From assembly GCF_014171575.1 (NCBI RefSeq), contig NZ_CP050453.1, positions 3,968,001 through 4,032,000 on the forward strand: 64,000 nt of DNA, read 5' to 3'. The stretch is from Microbacterium sp. Se63.02b (lineage in GTDB: Bacteria; Actinomycetota; Actinomycetes; Actinomycetales; Microbacteriaceae). Of this stretch, positions 1,262-12,137 are shown one piece after another. A program made the translations under genes and the position numbers. The notes beneath the pieces are model-generated. The model ran no database searches and was not told where the DNA came from. It saw nothing but the letters and a program-made list of their open reading frames with translations. Numbering within the stretch: position 1 is the stretch's first letter; every line of letters starts with the position of its first letter.

Positions 1262-1938
1262 ATGCGGATCCTGGTGGTGGACGACGAGGTGCGCCTCGCC
1301 GAGGGGTGCGCCGTGGGCTCGAGGCCGAGGGCTTCGCCGTCGATGTCGCCCACAACGGCGTCGACGGGCTGTGGCGAGCGCGGGAGACACGGTACGACGC
1401 CATCGTGCTCGACCTGATGATGCCGGGCATGAGCGGGTGGAAGGTGTGCGAGGCGCTGCGCGCGGAGGAGAACTGGACGCCCGTGCTGATGCTCACCGCG
1501 AAGGACGGCGAGTGGGACCAGGTCGAGGCGCTCGAGACCGGGGCAGACGACTACGTCACCAAGCCGTTCTCGTTCGCCATCCTCGTCGCACGGCTGCGAG
1601 CACTCGTCCGACGCGGGGCGGTCGCACGCCCGGCGATCCTCGAGGCCGGCGATCTGCGACTCGATCCGGCCGCGCACCGCGTGTGGCGCGGCGACACTCC
1701 GGTGTCGTTGACGGCGCGGGAGTTCTCGGTGCTCGAGCACCTCATGCGCCACCGCGGTCAGGTGCTGTCGAAGCGGGCCCTGATCGAGGGCGTCTGGGAC
1801 GACGACTTCGACGGCGACCCGAACATCGTCGAGGTCTACGTCGGCCATCTCCGCCGCAAGCTCGACAAGCCGTTCGGGCGCGAGGCGATCGAGACCATCC
1901 GCGGGGCGGGCTACCGACTGGCGGCCGACGGTGGCTAG
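1262..1938 (+). CDS. OmpR/PhoB-family response regulator (frameshifted)
   Basis: A two-component response regulator of about 226 residues. The receiver domain starts MRILVVDDEVRLAEG, with the acidic pair DD, the phosphoacceptor Asp in IVLDLMMPGMSG, and the conserved Lys in DDYVTKPF. The C-terminal winged helix contains LTAREFSVLEHLMRHRG and ends with GAGYRLAA. One G appears to be missing from the GGGG run at about 1303-1306, because codons 1-15 and the rest are in different frames. ATG at 1262 follows a GGAGG sequence. The gene overlaps the kinase gene by 8 bp, so the pair is co-translated. TTCAG repeats just upstream suggest autoregulation. Confidence 0.9.
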
Positions 1939-3246
1939 CCGGGGCTGGCGCTCGGTACGTGCCCGGACCACCCTCGGGGCGACGGCCGTCGTCGCGGTGG
2001 CACTGCTCGTCGGCGCCCTCTCGTTCTACGGCGTGCTCAGCGCGAGCATGCACAGCAGCACCGAACGCGCCGCCGAACAGCGGCTCGAAGAGCTCGCGGA
2101 GCGTGCGGGAGGCCCCGGCGGAAAGGGCATCGACGCGCTCGACGACGAGATCATCCAGATCATCGGGCCCGACGGCGCCGTGCGCGCGGCGAGCGAGGAC
2201 GCGCGGGACGCCCTCGGCTCGACGCCCCTCCCCTCGACGACGATCCGCAGACGATGACCGTCGACGGCGACCGCGTGCTCGTCGTCTCGGAAGACATCGA
2301 GGGAGACCGGACCCTCGTGCTCGCCGTGTCGATGGACGACGATGCGGAGACCCTCGCCACGGTCGCCACCCTGCTGGCCGTCGCCGTGCCCGTCCTGCTG
2401 CTGCTCGTGGCCGTGACCACCTGGCTGGTGGTCGGCCGTGCCCTCCGCCCGGTCGAGCGCATCCGCGAGGAGGTCGACGGCATCACGGCGGACCGCCTGC
2501 ATCAGCGCGTCCCGGTGCCCGACACGGCGGACGAGATCGCCGCGCTCGCCACCACCATGAACGGCATGCTCGACCGACTCGATGCGGCGGCCACCGCGCA
2601 GCGCCGTTTCGTGTCGGATGCCTCGCACGAGCTGCGGTCTCCGCTCGCGACCATCCGTCAGCATGCAGAGCTCGCCCACGCGCACCCCGAGGTCACGAGC
2701 ATCGCCGAGCTCGCGGAGGTCGTCTCGGAAGAAGGCCTCCGCCTGCAGGGGATCGTCGAGTCGCTGCTGCTGCTCGCCCGCCTCGACGAGGGCGCCGGCA
2801 CGAACGCCGAGGCGGTGGACCTCGACGACATCGCGCTGGGCGAGGTGCGCCGGATGCGGGCTGCCGGACTCGACGTGGACGGCTCGGGGATCCATGCCGC
2901 GAGGGTGCACGGCGACCCGCGCCTGCTCGGCCAGCTGGTGCGCAACCTGGCCGACAACGCCGTGCGGCACAGCCGGGGTCGCGTCGCGATCGGCGTGACC
3001 CCCGCGGGTGACCACGTGTTCCTCACGGTCGAGGACGACGGCGCCGGTGTCCCCTCCGCGGAGCGCGACCGCATCTTCGAACGCTTCGTGCGCCTCGACG
3101 AGGCACGCAGCCGCGACGCCGGAGGCAGCGGTCTCGGCCTCGCGATCGCACAGGGCATCGCGACCTCCGCCGGCGGGCACCTCACTGTCGACGACTCCCG
3201 ATGGGGCGGCGCCCGGTTCGTCCTCACCCTGCCCCTCACCGCCTGA
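1931..3246 (+). CDS. Sensor histidine kinase (frameshifted)
   Basis: Membrane sensor kinase of about 438 residues, partner of the preceding regulator. There is a first transmembrane helix at about residues 12-36 (ATAVVAVALLVGALSF), a short extracellular domain, and a second helix (LLAVAVPVLLLLVAVTTWLVV). A HAMP linker follows, then the H-box SDASHELRSPLATIRQH carrying the phosphorylated His. The N-box is LADNAVRHS, and the G-boxes are DDGAGVPSAERDRIFERF and GGSGLGLAIAQG. The frame breaks at about 2225-2240, in the extracellular domain, next to CCCCTCCCC. Both halves are otherwise intact, and the stop is TGA 3244-3246. Confidence 0.9.
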
Positions 3247-4484: not shown

Positions 4485-4898
4485 TCAGCCGCGGTTCCAG
4501 TGCCGGAGTTTCTCGGGATTGCTGACCACCCACGCCCGCGTCAGCCGTGCGCCGCGCGTCTCGGCGGTCACTGCGGCGAACACCACGCCACTGCGGGAGA
4601 GGACGAATCCCGGAGCGCCGTTGATCGACACCGCCCTGGCCGAGCAGTCTGCCGACGCCACCTCCGCCGAGGCCACCTCCGCCAGAGCGGACGCCGCGGC
4701 GCGATCCCCTTCGACGGGACGCGTCACCGCATCGACGACCCGACCGCTGTCGACGATGACGACCGCGTCAGGACGGAGCAGCGCACGGATCCCTTCCGTG
4801 TCCGCCGCCGCCATCCGCTGGGCGAGCTGTTCCATCGTGACCGGGTCTGCGACGTCACGACGATCCGGCGTCCGCCCCCGACGGCGCTCCGCGGTCAT
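4485..4898 (-). CDS. Stand-alone SnoaL-like protein downstream of the ECF41 sigma factor
   Basis: A 137-residue protein. Its ATG (4898-4896) overlaps the TGA of the sigma-factor gene, so the two are translationally coupled. The fold looks SnoaL/NTF2-like: an N-terminal helix region (MEQLAQRMAAADTEGIRALL), DAVVIVDSGRVVDAVTRPV, and a C-terminal strand run GFVLSRSGVVFAAVTAETRG ending VVSNPEKLRHW. The NPEKL segment closely resembles the NPDKL motif normally found at the end of the C-terminal domain of ECF41 sigma factors. The neighbouring sigma factor has SPQKL at that place. The protein may be a separated copy of that regulatory domain or a small-molecule binder. Confidence 0.7.
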   Translation of the reverse strand: MTAERRRGRTPDRRDVADPVTMEQLAQRMAAADTEGIRALLRPDAVVIVDSGRVVDAVTRPVEGDRAAASALAEVASAEVASADCSARAVSINGAPGFVLSRSGVVFAAVTAETRGARLTRAWVVSNPEKLRHWNRG

Positions 4899-5857
4899 AC
4901 GTCGACCGCGGTGACGTGGCCGAGCTTCTGAGGGCTCATCACCCAGAGGAGCTGCAGGATGCCGTCGGCCGACGTCGTCACGGTGACGATCGTGGTGACG
5001 ACGCCGTTCTCGATGAGTGTCGCCGCCGGCTGCCCGTTGACGTGCACCCAACCGATCGACTTGCCGATCCAGAAGTGGTGCGCGAACGCTGCGACGAACT
5101 TCGCCACCCTTCCCCGCCCGATCACCGGGATGCGTGCCGCGAGCTTCACGCCGTTGCCGTCCGTGTAGCTGACGACGTCTTCGGCGAAGAGCTTCTCCAG
5201 CGCCTGCGCGTCTCCCTTCTGCGCCGCGGTGAGGAAAGCCTCCAACAGGCGCCGCTGGTCCGATGCGGCGACCGTCGACTGCCGCGCGGACGCCAGGTGT
5301 CCGCGCGCGCGGCTCACGAGCTGTCTGGCGCTCACCACACTCGTCGAGATGACCTCCGCGATCCGGGGATAGGGATAGTCGAAGGCCTCGCGCAGGATGT
5401 AGGCGGCACGCTCGGTGGGCGTCAGCTTCTCGAGGGTCAGCAGGATCGCGAACTGCAGGGCCTCCGCGCGCTCGGCGCCGAGCGCAGGGTCGTCATCCGT
5501 GTTCACCGGCTCGGGAAGCCACGGTCCGATGTAGGTCTCGCGGCGCGAGTGCGCGGACTGCAGCACGTTGATCGAGAGTCGCGTCGCGATCGTCGCCAGG
5601 AACGCCGCCGGCTCGGCCACCCGCCCACGGTCGGTGTTCTGCCACCGGATCCAGGTGTCCTGCACGATGTCTTCCGCATCGGCGACCGTGCCGAGCATGC
5701 GGTAGGCGATGCCGAACAGGCGTCGTCGCTGCTGCGCGAACACCTCCACCGCGTCGTCGAGGTCGCCGCGCTGCGGGCTGCGGTGGTCTTCCGTCGAGTC
5801 CACGGGCCGGACCTCCCTCTCCTCCGCGGGCATCGGCGCGGAGCCGGCGCTCACCAC
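4895..5857 (-). CDS. ECF41-type RNA polymerase sigma factor with C-terminal SnoaL-like domain
   Basis: About 320 residues. Region 2 is RRRLFGIAYRMLGTVADAEDIVQDTWIRW. Region 4 includes LTPTERAAYILREAFDYPY and ISTSVVSARQLVSRARGHL. Between them lies the WLPEP motif that characterises ECF41 factors. The C-terminal SnoaL-like domain carries YTDGNGVKLAA in place of the usual DGGGK motif and ends LWVMSPQKLG. ECF41 factors have no anti-sigma factor; the C-terminal domain controls activity. GTG at 5857 is chosen because AAGGGG lies 7 bp upstream; ATG at 5833 is an alternative. Starts further upstream would overlap the promoter at 5938-5964. Confidence 0.85.
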   Translation of the reverse strand: MVSAGSAPMPAEEREVRPVDSTEDHRSPQRGDLDDAVEVFAQQRRRLFGIAYRMLGTVADAEDIVQDTWIRWQNTDRGRVAEPAAFLATIATRLSINVLQSAHSRRETYIGPWLPEPVNTDDDPALGAERAEALQFAILLTLEKLTPTERAAYILREAFDYPYPRIAEVISTSVVSARQLVSRARGHLASARQSTVAASDQRRLLEAFLTAAQKGDAQALEKLFAEDVVSYTDGNGVKLAARIPVIGRGRVAKFVAAFAHHFWIGKSIGWVHVNGQPAATLIENGVVTTIVTVTTSADGILQLLWVMSPQKLGHVTAVDV

Positions 5858-5937
5858 CGGGTATCCCCTTCGGATTCGTCGCATCCCGTCCGCCCATTCT
5901 GGCCCCTGCCTGCGTGCAGAGCGCCGTCGACAGCACT

Positions 5938-5964
5938 GACCGCCCAGCCGCCGGTTCTGTGACA
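5938..5964 (-). promoter_or_regulatory. ECF41-type promoter of the sigma-factor operon
   Basis: On the minus strand, TGTCACA (5964-5958) is followed after exactly 16 bp by GGTC (5941-5938). The published ECF41 promoter consensus is TGTCACA-N16-CGTC. It points at the sigma-factor gene, which suggests autoregulation. Confidence 0.75.
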
Positions 5965-5972
5965 CGCGCTCC

Positions 5973-5999
5973 CGTCACAAGCGGGTCGCCCACCCGGTC
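5973..5999 (+). promoter_or_regulatory. ECF41-type promoter of the first epimerase-like gene
   Basis: CGTCACA (5973-5979), 16 bp, then GGTC (5996-5999) on the plus strand, 49 bp before the ATG at 6049. Same geometry as the divergent sigma-factor promoter, whose -35 element lies 9 bp away. Confidence 0.7.
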
Positions 6000-6048
6000 T
6001 CTTGGGTATCCGTGGGATTCCGCGGGGAATCGGACATCGGAGGAAGAC

Positions 6049-6811
6049 ATGAGAATCACGGTCATCGGAGGCACGGGCCTCATCGGGGCACGCGTGGTGC
6101 GGCGGCTGGGCGACGCGGGACATGAGGTCGTCGCCGCGGCGCGTGCGACGGGCGTCAACTCGTATACACCGGCGAAGGCCTCGAGCAGGCTCTGACCGGA
6201 ACAGACGTCCTCGTCGACGTCTCCAACTCCTCGTACACCGACGAGGAGGGCGCGCGCGACTTCTTCACCACCTCGACGCTGAACCTGCTCAGCTACGGCG
6301 AAGCCGCCGGAGTCGGGCATCACGTCGCCCTCTCCGTGGTCGGCACCGACCGGCTCGCCCGTGCGGAGGGCGGATACTTCATCGCCAAGCACGAGCAGGA
6401 GCGGCTGATCTCGGCGTCCGGCCGCCCGTACTCCCTCGTGCACGCGACCCAGTTCTTCGAGTTCGTCCGCAGCATCACCGATCACGCGATGCGAGGTCGG
6501 GTCGCCCACATCGCGGACGTGCTCGTGCAGCCGATGGCGGCCGACGACGTGGCGGACGCCGTCGTGCGCACAGCCCTCGCCGACCCGCTCCACGGGATGA
6601 TCGAATTCGGCGGCCCGGAGGTGTTCAGCCTCGCCGCGGTGGCCGCGATGGACCTCCGCTCACGCCAGGACGAACGAGAAGTGGTGCCCGACCCCTGGGG
6701 ACATACTTCGGCGCCAGGCTCGGCCGCCGCGATCTGCTGCCGGAGGCGACCGCCACGATCGCCCCGACGCGCTATCACGACTGGCGCGTGCGAGTCACGG
6801 TGAACGCCTGA
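6049..6811 (+). CDS. NAD(P)-binding NmrA/epimerase-like protein 1 (frameshifted)
   Basis: A Rossmann-fold protein of about 253 residues. It starts MRITVIGGTGLIGARVVRRL, with the dinucleotide motif GGTGLIG, continues VVGTDRLARAEGGYFIAKHEQERL and PYSLVHATQFFEFVRS, and ends RYHDWRVRVTVNA. Members of this family act as atypical short-chain dehydrogenases or as redox-sensing binding proteins. ATG at 6049 has GGAGGA 6-11 bases upstream. The frame breaks at about 6163-6175 and again at about 6695-6705 (run GGGG). Oxidoreductase/epimerase genes beside ECF41 factors are their usual targets, and the upstream promoter fits this. Confidence 0.8.
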
Positions 6812-6813
6812 CC

Positions 6814-6840
6814 TGTCACACCCGGGGCTCGACCCCGGTC
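6814..6840 (+). promoter_or_regulatory. ECF41-type promoter of the second epimerase-like gene
   Basis: A perfect TGTCACA (6814-6820), 16 bp, then GGTC (6837-6840), 47 bp before the ATG at 6887. The spacer also forms a CCGGGG/CCCCGG inverted repeat that could help end the upstream transcript. Confidence 0.75.
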
Positions 6841-6886
6841 ATACCTGCAGGCACCACAGGGTGCCGCTCAAACGAAAGGCGTGGAC

Positions 6887-7625
6887 ATGGCAAAGATCGT
6901 CGTCATCGGAGGTACCGGCCTCATCGGCTCGAAGGTCGTCGCGAAGCTCAGGGAGCACGGCCACGACGCCGTCGCCGCGTCGCCCAACACGGGAGTGAAC
7001 TCTCTGACCGGCGAAGGGCTCGCCGATGCCCTGGTCGGCGCGGACACCGTCGTGGACGTCTCCAACTCCCCCTCGTTCGCGGCGGACGACGTGCTCGAGT
7101 TCTTCACCACGTCGACCCGCAACCTGCTGGCGGCCGAAGCCGTGGCCGGGGTGACCCACCATGTCGCCCTCACGATCGTCGGCACGAACCGGCCGCAGAG
7201 CATCCCCTACTTCGCGGCGAAAGTCGCCCAGGAACAGCTCATCCGCGACTCCGGCATCCCGTACTCCCTCGTGCACGCGACGCAGTTCTTCGAGTTCGTG
7301 GGGAGCATCGCCGACATCTCGACCGAGGGTGACACCGTCAGCCTGCCCGGCGCCCTCATCCAGCCGATCGCCGCAGAGGATGTGGCGACGGCCGTGGCGC
7401 GCACGGCCGCCGGCACCCCCTCAGGGGACTTCGAGATCGCGGGACCCGAGGCGTTCGGCATGGATGAGTTCGCCCGCCGCGCTCTCTCGTTCCGCCACGA
7501 CCCCCGCACGGTCGTCCGCGACGACAGTGCACCGTACTACGGCGCGCAGATCGCGGAGCGCACCCTCATCCCGATCGAGGGCGCGCGCATCTTCGAGACG
7601 ACCCTCGAGGAGTGGCTGCCGCTGA
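6887..7625 (+). CDS. NAD(P)-binding NmrA/epimerase-like protein 2 (3' end uncertain)
   Basis: A paralogue of the previous gene. MAKIVVIGGTGLIGSKVVAK has the GGTGLIG cofactor motif; later segments are VDVSNSPSFAADDVLEFFTTS, ALTIVGTNRPQSIPYFAAK, PYSLVHATQFFEFVGS and TLIPIEGARIFETTLEEWL. ATG at 6887 follows GAAAGG; a GTG at 6881 is less likely. The reading frame has no stop where the family usually ends (about 245-250 residues) and runs on through the antisense of the next gene. A frame change near 7610-7620 would give TGA at 7623-7625, which I take as the end. Transcription is probably driven by the ECF41-type promoter at 6814-6840. Confidence 0.75.
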
Positions 7626-7699
7626 ACCCGCCGCGCGTGACGGGTGCCGAGCGAGGGGCGTGGCGGCTGTGCAGCCCGCTCCTCGGTCGGTCCGCCGTG

Positions 7700-8494
7700 T
7701 CACTCGCCGCGGAACCGCGCCGCCAAGGCCGGGTCGACCTCCACGTCGCCGAAGGAGGCTGTCCAGGCACCGTCCACGGCGATGGACTCGCCGCTGAGGT
7801 ACGGGGCCTGGTCCGAGAGCAGGAAGGCGGTCACCGCGGCCACCTCTTCGGCACGGGCGATGCGCCCCATGGGCGGGCCCTCGGCGAGGCCGCGTTCCTC
7901 GGCTTCGGGATCGGGCGATGCGGCGATCTTCGCCTCGAGGTGCGGGGTGCGCACCCCTCCCGGTGCCACTGTGTTGGCGCGGATGCCGAGCCGGCCGTAG
8001 CTCACCGCCACGCTGCGGGTCAGGGCGTCGATGCCGCCCTTGGTGAACTCGTACGCGCCGTGGTGCGGGTGGCTGGCGCGGCCGTGGATCGAGCCGACGT
8101 TGACGATCGCCCCGGGGAGACCCTGGTCGATGAACGCCGAGACGGCCGTCGAGCACCCCCAGATGTAGCCGAAGCCGTTGATGCCGATGATCTCGCGTAC
8201 GACGTCTTCATCCAGTTCATGCAGCGGCGTGTGCTTCGTGATGCCGGCGTTGTTGACCCACCCTGCCAGCGGTGCCCTGGCGAGGGCCGCCTCCGCCGCC
8301 CTCTGGTGGGCGCTGCGCTCCGACGCGTCACCGAGCACGACTTCGGCGACGATGCCCTCCTCGAGCGTCCCGGACCCTGGCGAACGTTCGAGCCCAACGA
8401 CGATCCATCCGTCGGCCGTCAGGCGCTCGGCGATCGCCCGACCGATGCCCTTGCCGCTGCCCGTCACCACGACGCTGCGTGCGGATTCGATCAT
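7700..8494 (-). CDS. SDR-family oxidoreductase
   Basis: A complete 264-residue classical short-chain dehydrogenase. It has the cofactor motif TGSGKGIGRAIAE, the structural WVNNAG, the catalytic Ser in VNVGS, the YEFTK active-site Tyr/Lys pair, and a C-terminal FLLSDQAPYLSGESIAVDG. The sequence is closest in style to glucose-1-dehydrogenase-like and sugar-acid dehydrogenases. Its ATG overlaps the stop of the enolase-superfamily gene (ATGA at 8491-8494), so the two form an operon. The partner suggests it oxidises a sugar acid or related hydroxy compound; the substrate is not determinable. Confidence 0.9.
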   Translation of the reverse strand: MIESARSVVVTGSGKGIGRAIAERLTADGWIVVGLERSPGSGTLEEGIVAEVVLGDASERSAHQRAAEAALARAPLAGWVNNAGITKHTPLHELDEDVVREIIGINGFGYIWGCSTAVSAFIDQGLPGAIVNVGSIHGRASHPHHGAYEFTKGGIDALTRSVAVSYGRLGIRANTVAPGGVRTPHLEAKIAASPDPEAEERGLAEGPPMGRIARAEEVAAVTAFLLSDQAPYLSGESIAVDGAWTASFGDVEVDPALAARFRGE

Positions 8495-9571
8495 GAGAGG
8501 CCCCTTTCGAAGGCGAAGACGGACGGGTCGAGCGTGAAGCCGAGTCCCGGGGCATCGGTCGGGCGCACCTGACCCTCGAACGAGGGGCCGCCGACGATGA
8601 AGGACGGCGCGGGGTCGTAGGGGTTGCGTCCGCGTGCGAACGTCTCGACGCCGATGCCCAGGTGCGCGCGTGACCTCGGGATACGTGGCCCGAGACGGGC
8701 ACCTGGCGTGCCGACGCCCAGGCGATCATCTCGAGCGCGGGGGTGATGCCGCCGATGGCCACGACGTCGAGGCGGAGGGCATCGACACCGCCTTCCTCGA
8801 CGAGGGCGTGGAGCACGGCGGGATCGGTCACCTCGTCTCCGACCGAGACGGCGAGACCGGACTCGCGGCGGATGCGGGCGCAGCCGGCGGCGTCCTCGGG
8901 GAGCAGCGGATCCTCGAGCCAGGTGAGACGCGGGTCGCCCCACTGCGCGATCTCCGCGAGCGCGGTGTCGGCGTCGGGCCAGCCGAAGCCGACATCGACG
9001 ATGAGTCCCGTCTGCGCGGGCAGCTCGCTGTTCAGGAGCGCGAGCAGGTCGCGCATGTATCCGGGGTCGGCGACGCGCGAGATCTTCACGTTCGCCCATC
9101 CGTCCGCCTGGGCGAGCACCTCGTCGGCGACCTGGCGGGGAGTGCGGTCGGGAGAGGGGTACGCCGCGACGAGGATCGAGTCGCGGGGGCGTCTCCGGTG
9201 CCGAGGAGCCGCCACAGCGGCATGCCGGCACGACGAGCAGCGACGTCCCACAGCGCGATGTCGACGAGTCCGATCGCTCGGCGGACCAGCCCGACGCGGC
9301 CGACGATCGCACTGCCCCGCAGCATCCGGTTCCAGGTCGACGTGGGGTCGTCGGCGTCGGCTCCCCGTGCGTGCGCCGCGACGAGACGCTCGACGATCTC
9401 GGCCATCGGCGCCTCGCGCGAGAGGCAGTACGAGACACCCGTGACGCCATCGTCGTCTGTCACCTGGACCGCGCTGTACTCCCGTCGCGTGACGGTCATG
9501 GCGCCGAGCTGGAGGGGCGCCGGCAGTGGGAGCTGTGCCGTGGCGGTGTCGATGCGAGCGACCGTGGTCAT
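8491..9571 (-). CDS. Mandelate racemase/muconate lactonizing enzyme-family protein (frameshifted)
   Basis: An enolase-superfamily enzyme of about 360 residues. The N-terminal capping domain is MTTVARIDTATAQLPLPAPL. The barrel carries NVKIS (catalytic Lys strand), metal ligands in DVGFGWPD, WLEDPLLPED and VGDEV, and a SGHVSPE-type His segment after frame correction. The C-terminus is PDPSVFAFERGLS-like (LDPSVFAFERG). The frame breaks at about 9185-9192 (G run) and about 8675-8685 (after GHVS). Such enzymes dehydrate or racemise sugar acids. ATG 9571 follows AAGGGGACAC, and a perfect 14-bp palindrome lies 19 bp upstream. Confidence 0.85.
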
Positions 9572-9589
9572 GTGTCCCCTTGAAGGTGA

Positions 9590-9603
9590 TTTGCTATAGC
9601 AAA
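9590..9603. promoter_or_regulatory. Palindromic operator TTTGCTATAGCAAA
   Basis: A perfect 14-bp palindrome 19 bp upstream of the start of the enolase-superfamily/SDR operon. Its size and position fit a dimeric repressor of the GntR or IclR type. No matching regulator gene lies next to it in this window. Confidence 0.55.
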
Positions 9604-9674
9604 CACGAGCATAGCCGCAGAACCGTTGTCCGTGCGGGTTCGAATTCCTCGGAAGCGCCGACGATCGCGGCTGC

Positions 9675-10288
9675 TCAGACCGCGACCGCACTGATCGACG
9701 CGTGCGGTCGAAGGCCCTCGTCCACCCTGGCGTCACTGTCGACGACGGCGAATCCTGCCCGTTCGAGCAGTGCCGACATTCCCGCCCGCGACCAGTGGTG
9801 CGCCGTCGTCACTGCGTGGGGAAACGCCTCGCCGTCCGCTCCGTCGAAGAAGCCGACCAGCAGCCCTCCGCCCTCACGGATCGCGCACCGCGCGGCGGTG
9901 AGGAGGCTCGGCAACTCGTCCGGACTCGCGTGGATCAGCGAGTACCAGGCGAGGACACCCCGACGGAGCCGGGTCGGACACCGGGGTCGAGCAGCGACGC
10001 CACGCGGTAGGAGACATGCGGGAATCGTGCCGACGCGGTCGCGACGAACGCGGGCACCAGGTCGATGCCCTCCGCCTCCCGCCCGCGATCGGCGAGGTAT
10101 GCGGTCCACTGTCCGGGACCGCATCCCGCATCGAGGATGGGTCCGTCGATCCCGTCCGCCCATCCCGCGATGCGCTCCCGGTCTCTCGCGTCGAGCTGAC
10201 CGACGTCGCCGAAGAGCGCGGTGTACTCGTCCGCGCGAGCGGTGTATCCATCGCGCACGCGGCGGTCTGTTCGCGTGCCTGCCGACAT
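9675..10288 (-). CDS. Class I SAM-dependent methyltransferase (frameshifted)
   Basis: About 204 residues. Motif I is ILDAGCGPGQWTAYLADRG, with the acidic residue of motif II in EGIDLVP. After the break the other frame gives LAWYSLIHASPDELPSLLTA and GGGLLVGFFDGADG, typical of UbiE-like methyltransferases. The frame change lies at about 9960-9965. The substrate is unknown. The gene is divergent from the ChrB-like gene, with about 115 bp between them that hold a strong inverted repeat. Confidence 0.8.
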
Positions 10289-10377
10289 GGCTCACCCCTC
10301 CCGGTGTCGTCCGAGCATCTCTCGTCGACCGTACCGACCCTCGCGGACATCGGCCGCTCGTGCGCTCCCCGACGCCG

Positions 10378-10403: not shown

Positions 10404-10940
10404 GTGACAGATTCTGAGGGGTGGCTCGTCCTCCTGGTCCAGGTGCCTGCGACGCCGTCGCGGCATCGCGTGGCCGTCTGGCGGGAGCTGCGCCAGTTCG
10501 GCGCCGTCCCCGCAGGTCAGGGCACCTGGGTCGCACCGGATGTCCCCGCGTGCGCCGCCGGGGTGGAACGTGCCAGGGCGCTCGCGCAGCGTGGAGACGG
10601 CGACATCCTGGTGCTGCGCACCCAGACCGACGGGGGTGACACCGCGGCGCTTCGCGAGCTGTTCGACGCCGCGCGCGCCGACGACTGGTCGGAGTTCGTC
10701 GCCGACTGCGCGAAGTACCGCGCGGAGATCGCCCGCGAGATCGAGAAGAAGAAGTTCACGCTCGCGGAGCTCGAGGAGGAGGAGCAGAGTCTCGACCGTC
10801 TGCAGCGCTGGCATCGCACCCTGCGCAGCCGAGACGTGTTCGAGTCCCCGGCGTCGAAGGAGGCCGACCGCGAGCTGGCCGCGTGCGGAGCGGACCTCGG
10901 CCGGTTCGCCGAACTCGTGTATCAGGCCGTGCACGCATGA
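10404..10940 (+). CDS. ChrB N-terminal-domain protein (chromate resistance family)
   Basis: A complete 178-residue protein starting at GTG 10404. The N-terminal part (LVQVPATPSRHRVAVWRELR, GTWVAPDVPAC, LVLRTQTDGGDTA) matches the ChrB N-terminal domain. The middle is a charged coiled-coil (EIEKKKFTLAELEEEEQSLDRL). Full-length ChrB proteins are larger and repress chromate-resistance genes until chromate appears; this short form lacks the second domain. It is translationally coupled (ATGA) to an MFS transporter. The pair may be a small resistance or efflux unit, but chromate is inferred from the family only. Confidence 0.75.
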   Translation: MTDSEGWLVLLVQVPATPSRHRVAVWRELRQFGAVPAGQGTWVAPDVPACAAGVERARALAQRGDGDILVLRTQTDGGDTAALRELFDAARADDWSEFVADCAKYRAEIAREIEKKKFTLAELEEEEQSLDRLQRWHRTLRSRDVFESPASKEADRELAACGADLGRFAELVYQAVHA

Positions 10941-12137
10941 GCAGGCCGGCGTCCGAGCCGCGAACGGGCGCGATCGCCCCGCTCTACGCCGCGGGGTTCG
11001 TCACCGCTTTCGGCGCCCACAGCATCGCGGCGGGCATCGGCGCGAGCAGCGACGACATCGGCCTCGACCTGCTCCGGCTCGGCGCCCTGCTGGCGATCTA
11101 CGACCTCGCCGAAGTGTTCCTCAAGCCCGTGTTCGGCTCCATCGCCGACAGGATCGGCGCCAAGCCCGTGATCGTCGTCGGGCTCCTCGCGTTCGGACTC
11201 GTGTCGCTCGTCGGGCTGTGGTCGTCGAGCACGGTCGCCCTGGCGATCGCTCGACTCGGCCAGGGTGCGGCGGCATCCGCCTTCTCCCCGCGTCCTCGGC
11301 GACGGTCGCACGTCTGGCCGGCGCCGGCTCGAAGGGCAGGTACTTCGGCCGGTACGGTTCCTGGAAGGGTCTCGGCTACACCCTGGGCCCGCTCATCGGC
11401 GCCGGGCTGATCTTCCTCGGCGGCTTCGCGCTCCTCTTCGCCTGCCTGAGCGCGGTCGCCATCGCCACCGCCGTCTGGGTGGCCATCGCCCTCCCCGGGT
11501 CGAGCCGCTGCCCCGCCCCCGCTACACGATCGCCGACCTCGCACGGCAGACGACCGAACGGGGATTCCTCGTTCCCACGCTCGTCCTTGCGGCATCCACC
11601 GGCGCGCTGGGCGCTGCCATCGGCTTCCTCCCCGCACTCGCGAGCAGCCAGGACGCTCCGCTGTTCGCGAGCATCGCGATCGCCTCCGCGCTGGCGCTCA
11701 CCTCGGCGCTCACCCAACCGTTCGCCGGAAGACTCCGCGACAGCGGCCGCCTGAGCGACAGGGCGGGGATGACGCTCGGCGTGGAGATCATCGCGGCCGG
11801 CATCCTCCTCGCGGCGTTCTGGCCGTCGCTGCCCATGCTCTACGGGGCGGCGGCTCTGCTCGGGGTCGGAATCGGTCTCGCGACGCCCTTCGCGTTCGCG
11901 CACCTGGCCGACACGACGCCGCCGGAGCGCATGGGCCGCACCATGGGCACCGCCGAACTCGGACGGGAGCTCGGCGACGCCGGGGGACCGCTGCTCGTGG
12001 GCGGCGTCGCCGTCGCGGCGACACTTCCGATCGGCCTCGGCGCACTTGCGGTCGTCGTCGCCGTCACGGGAGCGGCGACCAGGGCGCTGCCCGGCGTCGT
12101 TGCCGTACGAGAGCCTCCTGACGCGCGCCGGGACTGA
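10937..12137 (+). CDS. MFS transporter (frameshifted)
   Basis: A twelve-helix-type major facilitator transporter of about 400 residues. Motif A-like loop residues are FGSIADRIGAKPVIVVG between helices 2 and 3. Further segments are GSWKGLGYTLGPLIGAG, GALGAAIGFLPALASSQ and MLYGAAALLGVGIGLATPFA. A second loop, RMGRTMGTAELGRELGDAGG, resembles those of drug-efflux members. The frame breaks at about 11285 (CCCC) and about 11500 (CCCCGGG). It is co-translated with the ChrB-like gene and is probably the exporter of that unit. Confidence 0.8.

Follow-up and report, generated by a model that had tools for sequence, protein, structure and literature searches.

At one locus of Microbacterium sp. Se63.02b, a sigma factor of the ECF41 type (extracytoplasmic function, ECF, group 41) is encoded directly upstream of a free-standing copy of the kind of regulatory domain that such sigma factors carry at their C-terminus. 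The locus lies in a window of 64,000 nucleotides (3968001-4032000 of a one-contig, 4.08-Mb genome), to which all coordinates below refer. On the minus strand, the sigma gene occupies 4895..5833 (ATG at 5833; a GTG at 5803, preceded by an AG-rich stretch, is an alternative start), and the free gene, which encodes an NTF2/SnoaL-like protein of 137 amino acids, occupies 4485..4898. Two genes run divergently on the plus strand, E2 (6049..6811, NmrA/epimerase-like) and E1 (6887..7636, an NmrA-like/NAD(P)-binding protein). By motif match and conservation, promoters are assigned to the operon of the sigma factor and the free domain (TGTCACA-N16-GGTC, 5938..5964, minus), to E2 (CGTCACA-N16-GGTC, 5973..5999, plus) and to E1 (TGTCACA-N16-GGTC, 6814..6840, plus). 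The original prediction, made from the window alone, had described a self-contained ECF41 regulon with these three promoters. Their coordinates are exact on re-check, but the regulon is not self-contained in the sense intended, since the free regulatory domain, coupled to the sigma factor within the same stretch, had gone unmentioned. On sequence grounds, this free protein is probably a trans-acting regulator of the sigma factor, born by erosion of a second ECF41 sigma.

The assignment of the sigma factor to ECF41, originally read from a WLPEP linker, is borne out. PWLPEP stands between sigma2 and sigma4, the protein exceeds the cut-offs of NCBIfam SigX4 (340.4 bits, cut-off 323.25) and SigJ (290.5 bits, cut-off 271), its best PDB sequence match is SigJ (5xe7, E 1.1e-78), and it is the sole sigma of this genome above the SigX4 cut-off. 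The SnoaL-like C-terminus claimed for it holds in so far as the full-length SigX4 and SigJ matches take in an NTF2/SnoaL-like extension; the Pfam SnoaL_2 match itself falls under the cut-off (22.8 vs 27). In this arrangement of sigma2, WLPEP linker, sigma4 and fused NTF2/SnoaL-like domain, the protein resembles Ecf41Bli, Ecf41Rsp and the SigJ of M. tuberculosis, and the locus as a whole shares with known ECF41 systems the -35 element TGTCACA, the 16-bp spacer, neighbours of the COE (carboxymuconolactone decarboxylase, oxidoreductase or epimerase) kind, here NmrA/epimerase-type, and autoregulation. The C-terminal domain of the window sigma carries DGNG and SPQKL, whereas canonical ECF41 has DGGG and NPxKL. 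In other words, the NPDKL-type distal motif of the ECF41 extension named in PMC7730460 is absent here and replaced by SPQKL, a loss that is a divergence of the clade and not of the fold.

The free gene begins where the sigma gene ends, its ATG overlapping the sigma stop as ATGA, and its product has kept DSG... and NPEKL. Its matches to the SigJ and SigX4 models (61.9 and 55.3 bits) are confined to their C-terminal part; a separate sequence-profile match to SigJ has an E of 7.4e-15. An AlphaFold 2 (AF2) model of the free protein is predicted to be NTF2-like (predicted local distance difference test, pLDDT, 87.2; predicted template modelling score, pTM, 0.80), and the structure that it matches with the highest Z is that of the SigG1 SnoaL domain (7qh5; Z 12.0, root-mean-square deviation 3.1, 115 aligned), the second-best Z being 10.3; SigJ 5xe7 stands at Foldseek rank 12 (E 6.5e-5) and is not among the 50 VIA matches listed. 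A fold shared between models and structures is no proof of function. When 366 congeneric genomes were searched with a profile, 77 sigma orthologues scored at least 469 bits, in 76 genomes; the next sigma group reached 300-387 bits, and no other ECF41 exceeded 252 bits. Four of the 81 loci (L175-L178) have no sigma of at least 469 bits and were left out of the layout count. The free gene lies directly 3' of the sigma gene on the same strand in 72 of the 77 loci, two of the 72 being weak matches (L168, 45 bits; L174, 32 bits), and the 4-base overlap of start and stop is found in 67 (49 ATGA, 18 GTGA). From this overlap, the free gene appears to be co-transcribed with the sigma gene. Motif sites before the free gene, inside the sigma gene, are only seven and scattered (C in the -10 in five, a spacer of 17 in four), and for this reason the free gene would depend on the sigma promoter.

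The free gene is also kept at loci where the sigma gene is damaged or the two have come apart. In G261 a deleted and frameshifted sigma stands next to an intact free gene; G120 has the free gene at another place in the locus, on the opposite strand, with its own TGTCACA-N16-GGTC; and in G019, contig 10 retains the free gene and E1, together with the promoter, 62 in-frame codons left of the sigma gene and the ATGA overlap, while contig 8 holds an intact sigma without an adjacent free gene. A natural in-frame sigma deletion with promoter, 62-codon leader and free-gene overlap intact can be seen at L178:3340-3520. Among the closest pairs listed, the ratio of nonsynonymous to synonymous substitution rates (dN/dS) is 0.11-0.52 for the free gene vs 0.04-0.17 for the sigma gene, values which indicate purifying selection on the free gene in close pairs.

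As to the promoters, the loose form GTCACA-N17-GTC occurs three times in the window vs 0.90 expected, and three of 100 shuffles also reach three; inside the window, this form is only modestly unusual and not striking. Over the whole genome it gives 16 matches vs 4 for the reversed control. A genome scan had been proposed as a check, with a motif common at random positions as the outcome that would speak against the regulon. Run as YGTCACA-N16-KGTC over the 4.08 Mb, it returned just five matches vs two for the reversed control. Three of the five fall inside 903 bp at the ECF41 locus, and the remaining two, additional to those predicted, lie inside or across open reading frames (ORFs) resembling a peptidyl-tRNA hydrolase and a glutaredoxin (gene names assigned by eye). 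In this genome, only the three sites of the locus remain.

It is conservation across the 77 orthologous loci that settles the reality of the promoters. With spacers of 15-17 and any first -10 base permitted, 164 motif sites were found upstream of sigma (49 sites in 46 loci), E2 (53 in 48) or E1 (62 in 60). The common N16 geometry first seen in three promoters extends to 163 of these sites, and the G first flagged at the start of their -10 proves to be part of a clade-wide pattern (G 128, T 34, C 1, A 1); the -35 reads TGTCACA in 93, CGTCACA in 53 and otherwise in 18. The published ECF41 consensus, TGTCACA-N16-CGTC (PMC3426412), agrees with the clade in -35 and spacer and differs at the first -10 base, which is G or T in 162 of the 164 sites. 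Indeed, the clade possesses its own -10, (G/T)GTC, which offers a marker for regulon members in Microbacterium. Outside the upstream regions of the three genes, the same loci hold 169 further loose matches, 44 of which fit the strict motif, and 42 of these precede another ORF of at least 100 amino acids (ORFs called mechanically; loci L099-L178). Examples tested against Pfam include three kinds of alpha/beta hydrolase, a short-chain dehydrogenase/reductase (SDR) and two FAD/NAD reductases. The strict motif also stands before a protein beginning LNSAVGTELFVLQS, which has no Pfam match. A single target was reported for ECF41 in two other species; the additional sites before other genes imply that the regulon varies and, in some relatives, exceeds that number.

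With regard to the origin of the free domain, tandem loci in four genomes (G772, G399, G577, G672) carry a second full-length ECF41-like protein after the orthologous sigma. With the sigma-core profile, the cores of these second proteins reach 36-90 bits; their C-terminal domains are of the free type. A profile built from 94 canonical ECF41 proteins gives the second proteins 243-327, where the canonical set has a minimum of 322 and a median of 483, and AED..Q is present in none of six, two from Streptomyces included, vs 91 of 94 canonical proteins and five of six partner sigmas. WLPEP is also missing from the second proteins of L268 and Streptomyces, and sigma4 from the Streptomyces pair. At the Streptomyces loci (L197, L230), the sigma gene and that of the sigma4-less degenerate second protein are convergent. 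The four tandem genomes come from a search of the family in which 30 of 398 genomes had matches at E <= 1e-20; a free domain alone beside a sigma occurs in other genera and in one other family as well.

Domain trees were built from two samples. In the first, of 125 rows, free and degenerate domains form one set with a support of 96 in the Shimodaira-Hasegawa-like approximate likelihood ratio test (SH-aLRT). The second, of 84 rows, omits L168_free, L175_free_3904, L276 and L255_canon as odd or long and, among others, two freeOther rows of the first tree; here, a clade supported at 100/99 unites the partner domains and holds no free domain. A topology in which free and partner domains make up one clade is rejected by the approximately unbiased (AU) test (p = 0.03). 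These comparisons indicate an ancestry of the free domain separate from that of its partner's domain. The candidate explanation that the free domain is a copy of the partner's own domain is disfavoured by the trees and the AU test.

A contrast in signature accompanies this separation. Canonical domains have NPxKL in 100 of 100 cases and DGGG in 90; partner domains, fused to the sigma, have the N of NPxKL in none of 74 and DGNG in 73; and free domains have NPxKL in at least 75 of 89, a set that includes a few contig-edge or frameshifted rows. A tally of 120 distinct sigma cores in and beyond Microbacterium gives, at the N position, S 66, N 12, A 6, T 1 and one unread for the 86 sigmas with a free partner, N in all four with a degenerate partner, and N 11, A 9, S 6, T 2 and two unread for the 30 without a partner. 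This tally rules out a hand-over of the motif as a strict rule, and the sequences place the NPxKL contrast as a feature of Microbacterium rather than a general one.

On the mechanism proposed, the sigma factor would transcribe its own operon, that is, itself and the free domain, and the two divergent NmrA-like genes from three like promoters. Sigma factor and free protein would come from one mRNA with translation coupled through the 4-base overlap, and hence be produced in a fixed ratio. The free protein would then bind the sigma factor, either at the sigma2-sigma4 linker, with which the C-terminal domain makes contact in other ECF41 proteins, or against the sigma factor's own NTF2-like domain, and keep it inactive until released by a ligand or signal. 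The binding, its inhibitory rather than helpful effect and the ligand are all inferred. In B. licheniformis, a C-terminal NPDKL is described as linking the domain to the YVGPWLPEP linker (PMC7730460). Docking at the sigma linker in trans is a direct guess from the sequences, made because the free protein keeps NPxKL and the sigma factor keeps the linker, and docking on the sigma factor's own NTF2-like domain is the alternative. The AF2 model of the sigma factor (pTM 0.54, linker below 50 pLDDT) is weak in the linker and is therefore given no weight as to docking.

A further part of the proposal concerns descent. A second, tandem sigma would have eroded stepwise in its polymerase-binding and DNA-binding parts, with region 2.2 degenerating and then the linker, sigma4 and the whole core being lost, an order that is likewise inferred. 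The odds seem evenly balanced that such a pseudo-sigma lost first its binding to core RNA polymerase, then linker and sigma4 and lastly the entire core, leaving a detached domain to control the first sigma in trans, with the signature in Microbacterium lost by the first sigma's own domain and retained by the detached one.

Compared with published ECF41 systems, the window locus differs in that the sigma factor is coupled to a second, free-standing regulatory domain, and the clade differs in having (G/T)GTC in place of CGTC, DGNG with S/A/TPxKL in the fused domain, and two or more targets. ECF41 loci are described in PMC3426412 as having no obvious anti-sigma gene nearby. No stand-alone ECF41 domain was found in a search of the openly accessible literature. 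The closest analogy is SigG1-RsfG of Streptomyces tsukubaensis, in which a co-transcribed partner is reported to bind a SnoaL-bearing ECF, and it is by analogy with this pair that inhibition is the preferred mode of action. SigG1 belongs to ECF56, unlike the window sigma; RsfG, set beside the free domain here by its description, reportedly lacks any Pfam domain and has an additional promoter of its own, and no free ECF41-type domain was found within 1.5 kb at any of 20 SigG1-like loci.

Several observations weigh against a regulatory free protein that descends from a sigma factor. Its Pfam match, to DUF4440, is sub-threshold, it adjoins metabolic genes, and NTF2-like domains are often enzymes. 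Five sigmas lack an adjacent free gene (G001, G333, G161, G019, G120); the sigma of G161 carries an in-frame TGA, and G001 and G333 have an intact sigma with no free gene found in its vicinity. Over 1673 pairs, mostly near saturation, the median dN/dS is 0.70 for the free gene vs 0.24 for the sigma gene, and because of this value the constraint on the free gene must be called weak or variable. In the 84-row tree, the branch that sets free and degenerate domains apart has a support of 78/0. Lastly, most sigmas with a free partner beyond Microbacterium retain NPxKL, and the N is lost in 17 of 28 readable sigmas that have no free partner.

Some of these points lend themselves to other explanations. 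The free protein might help rather than inhibit, supplying in trans the NPxKL half of a regulatory contact needed for activity or ligand sensing. The loss of the N from all 74 sigma domains of the clade, and its retention in most free ones, would fit such a role, as would the deletion analysis in PMC3426412, by which the ECF41 extension is both positive and negative. The intact sigmas of G001 and G333 manage without an adjacent free gene, however, and NPxKL is retained by the four tandem-locus sigmas and by 12 with free partners, such that a helper is rather unlikely. A small NTF2-like enzyme or binding protein, comparable to ketosteroid isomerase or the polyketide cyclases and working with the NmrA-like, hydrolase and reductase products, is improbable. 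The fold is indeed common to ketosteroid isomerases, and the motif precedes hydrolase, SDR and FAD genes in some relatives, yet profiles group the free protein with the C-terminal domains of ECF41 sigmas and not with cyclases, its coupling is to the sigma gene and not to E1 or E2, and degenerate-sigma intermediates exist. The faster evolution of the free gene, its high all-pairs median and its absence beside five of 77 sigmas could suggest a functionless, decaying relic of a second sigma; set against the 67 loci where it is open and coupled, the low ratios in the closest pairs listed, its persistence where sigma is deleted (G019, G261) and its own promoter where detached (G120), this is very improbable. 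Finally, an ordinary ECF41 regulon with merely one additional target, as originally envisaged, accounts for the promoters, the divergent layout and the NmrA-like targets, and leaves the coupled free domain and the (G/T)GTC -10 unexplained; it can hardly be credited. If the free domain is instead a regulator of the sigma factor, as preferred here, it would provide trans-acting control for ECF41, whose regulation is otherwise the textbook case of a fused domain in place of a separate anti-sigma protein. It could be deleted, mutated or titrated apart from the sigma factor, giving a genetic handle on the ECF41 signal, and the degenerate tandem sigmas would mark a possible route from a sigma factor to an anti-sigma-like protein.

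The two epimerase-like targets of the original prediction stand in respect of their own conserved promoters; their reading frames are less straightforward. E2 extends over three frames, with changes near 6165 and 6690, and E1 lacks an in-frame stop at the expected place, so that its ORF reads on through a frame change to 8572. E1 exceeds the Pfam NmrA and NAD(P)-binding cut-offs, and E2 is its frameshifted relative. Conserved genes are split across frames elsewhere in the window too (1931-3246, 6049-7640, 8490-9740, 9700-10290 and 10883-12137, comprising a histidine kinase, E2/E1, a mandelate-racemase-like gene, a methyltransferase and a major facilitator superfamily, MFS, gene), for which reason assembly indels are the likely cause. 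By Pfam, the N and C parts of the mandelate-racemase-like protein lie in two frames, as does the MFS protein, the methyltransferase is matched partially, and the N-terminal piece of the histidine kinase is in a different frame; genome completeness is 92 vs 99-100 for most relatives. Each frame piece of E2 is 70-86% identical to orthologues, and with E1 and other genes also split, a true recent pseudogene is not the likelier cause.

The layout of the window, with E1 and E2 divergent from the sigma and free genes, is found in 10 of the 77 loci, the window included (the E2 of one, L106, being internally shortened). A co-directional E2-sigma-free-E1 order occurs in 16 and sigma-free-E1 in 14. Two targets with divergent autoregulation had been taken as more than the usual single target. 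The arrangement is conserved, but loci of the divergent form <ECF< >COE> in which the motif precedes each of the two genes had been published before (55 of 373; PMC3426412, Table 4), and the breadth is thus a modest variation. Six loci (L121, L147, L164, L176, L177, L035) hold a second related group of ECF41 sigmas at 365-387 bits, which often adjoins an E2-type gene and has no free domain beside it; in L176, a sigma of this second group occupies the usual sigma place before the free gene and E1.

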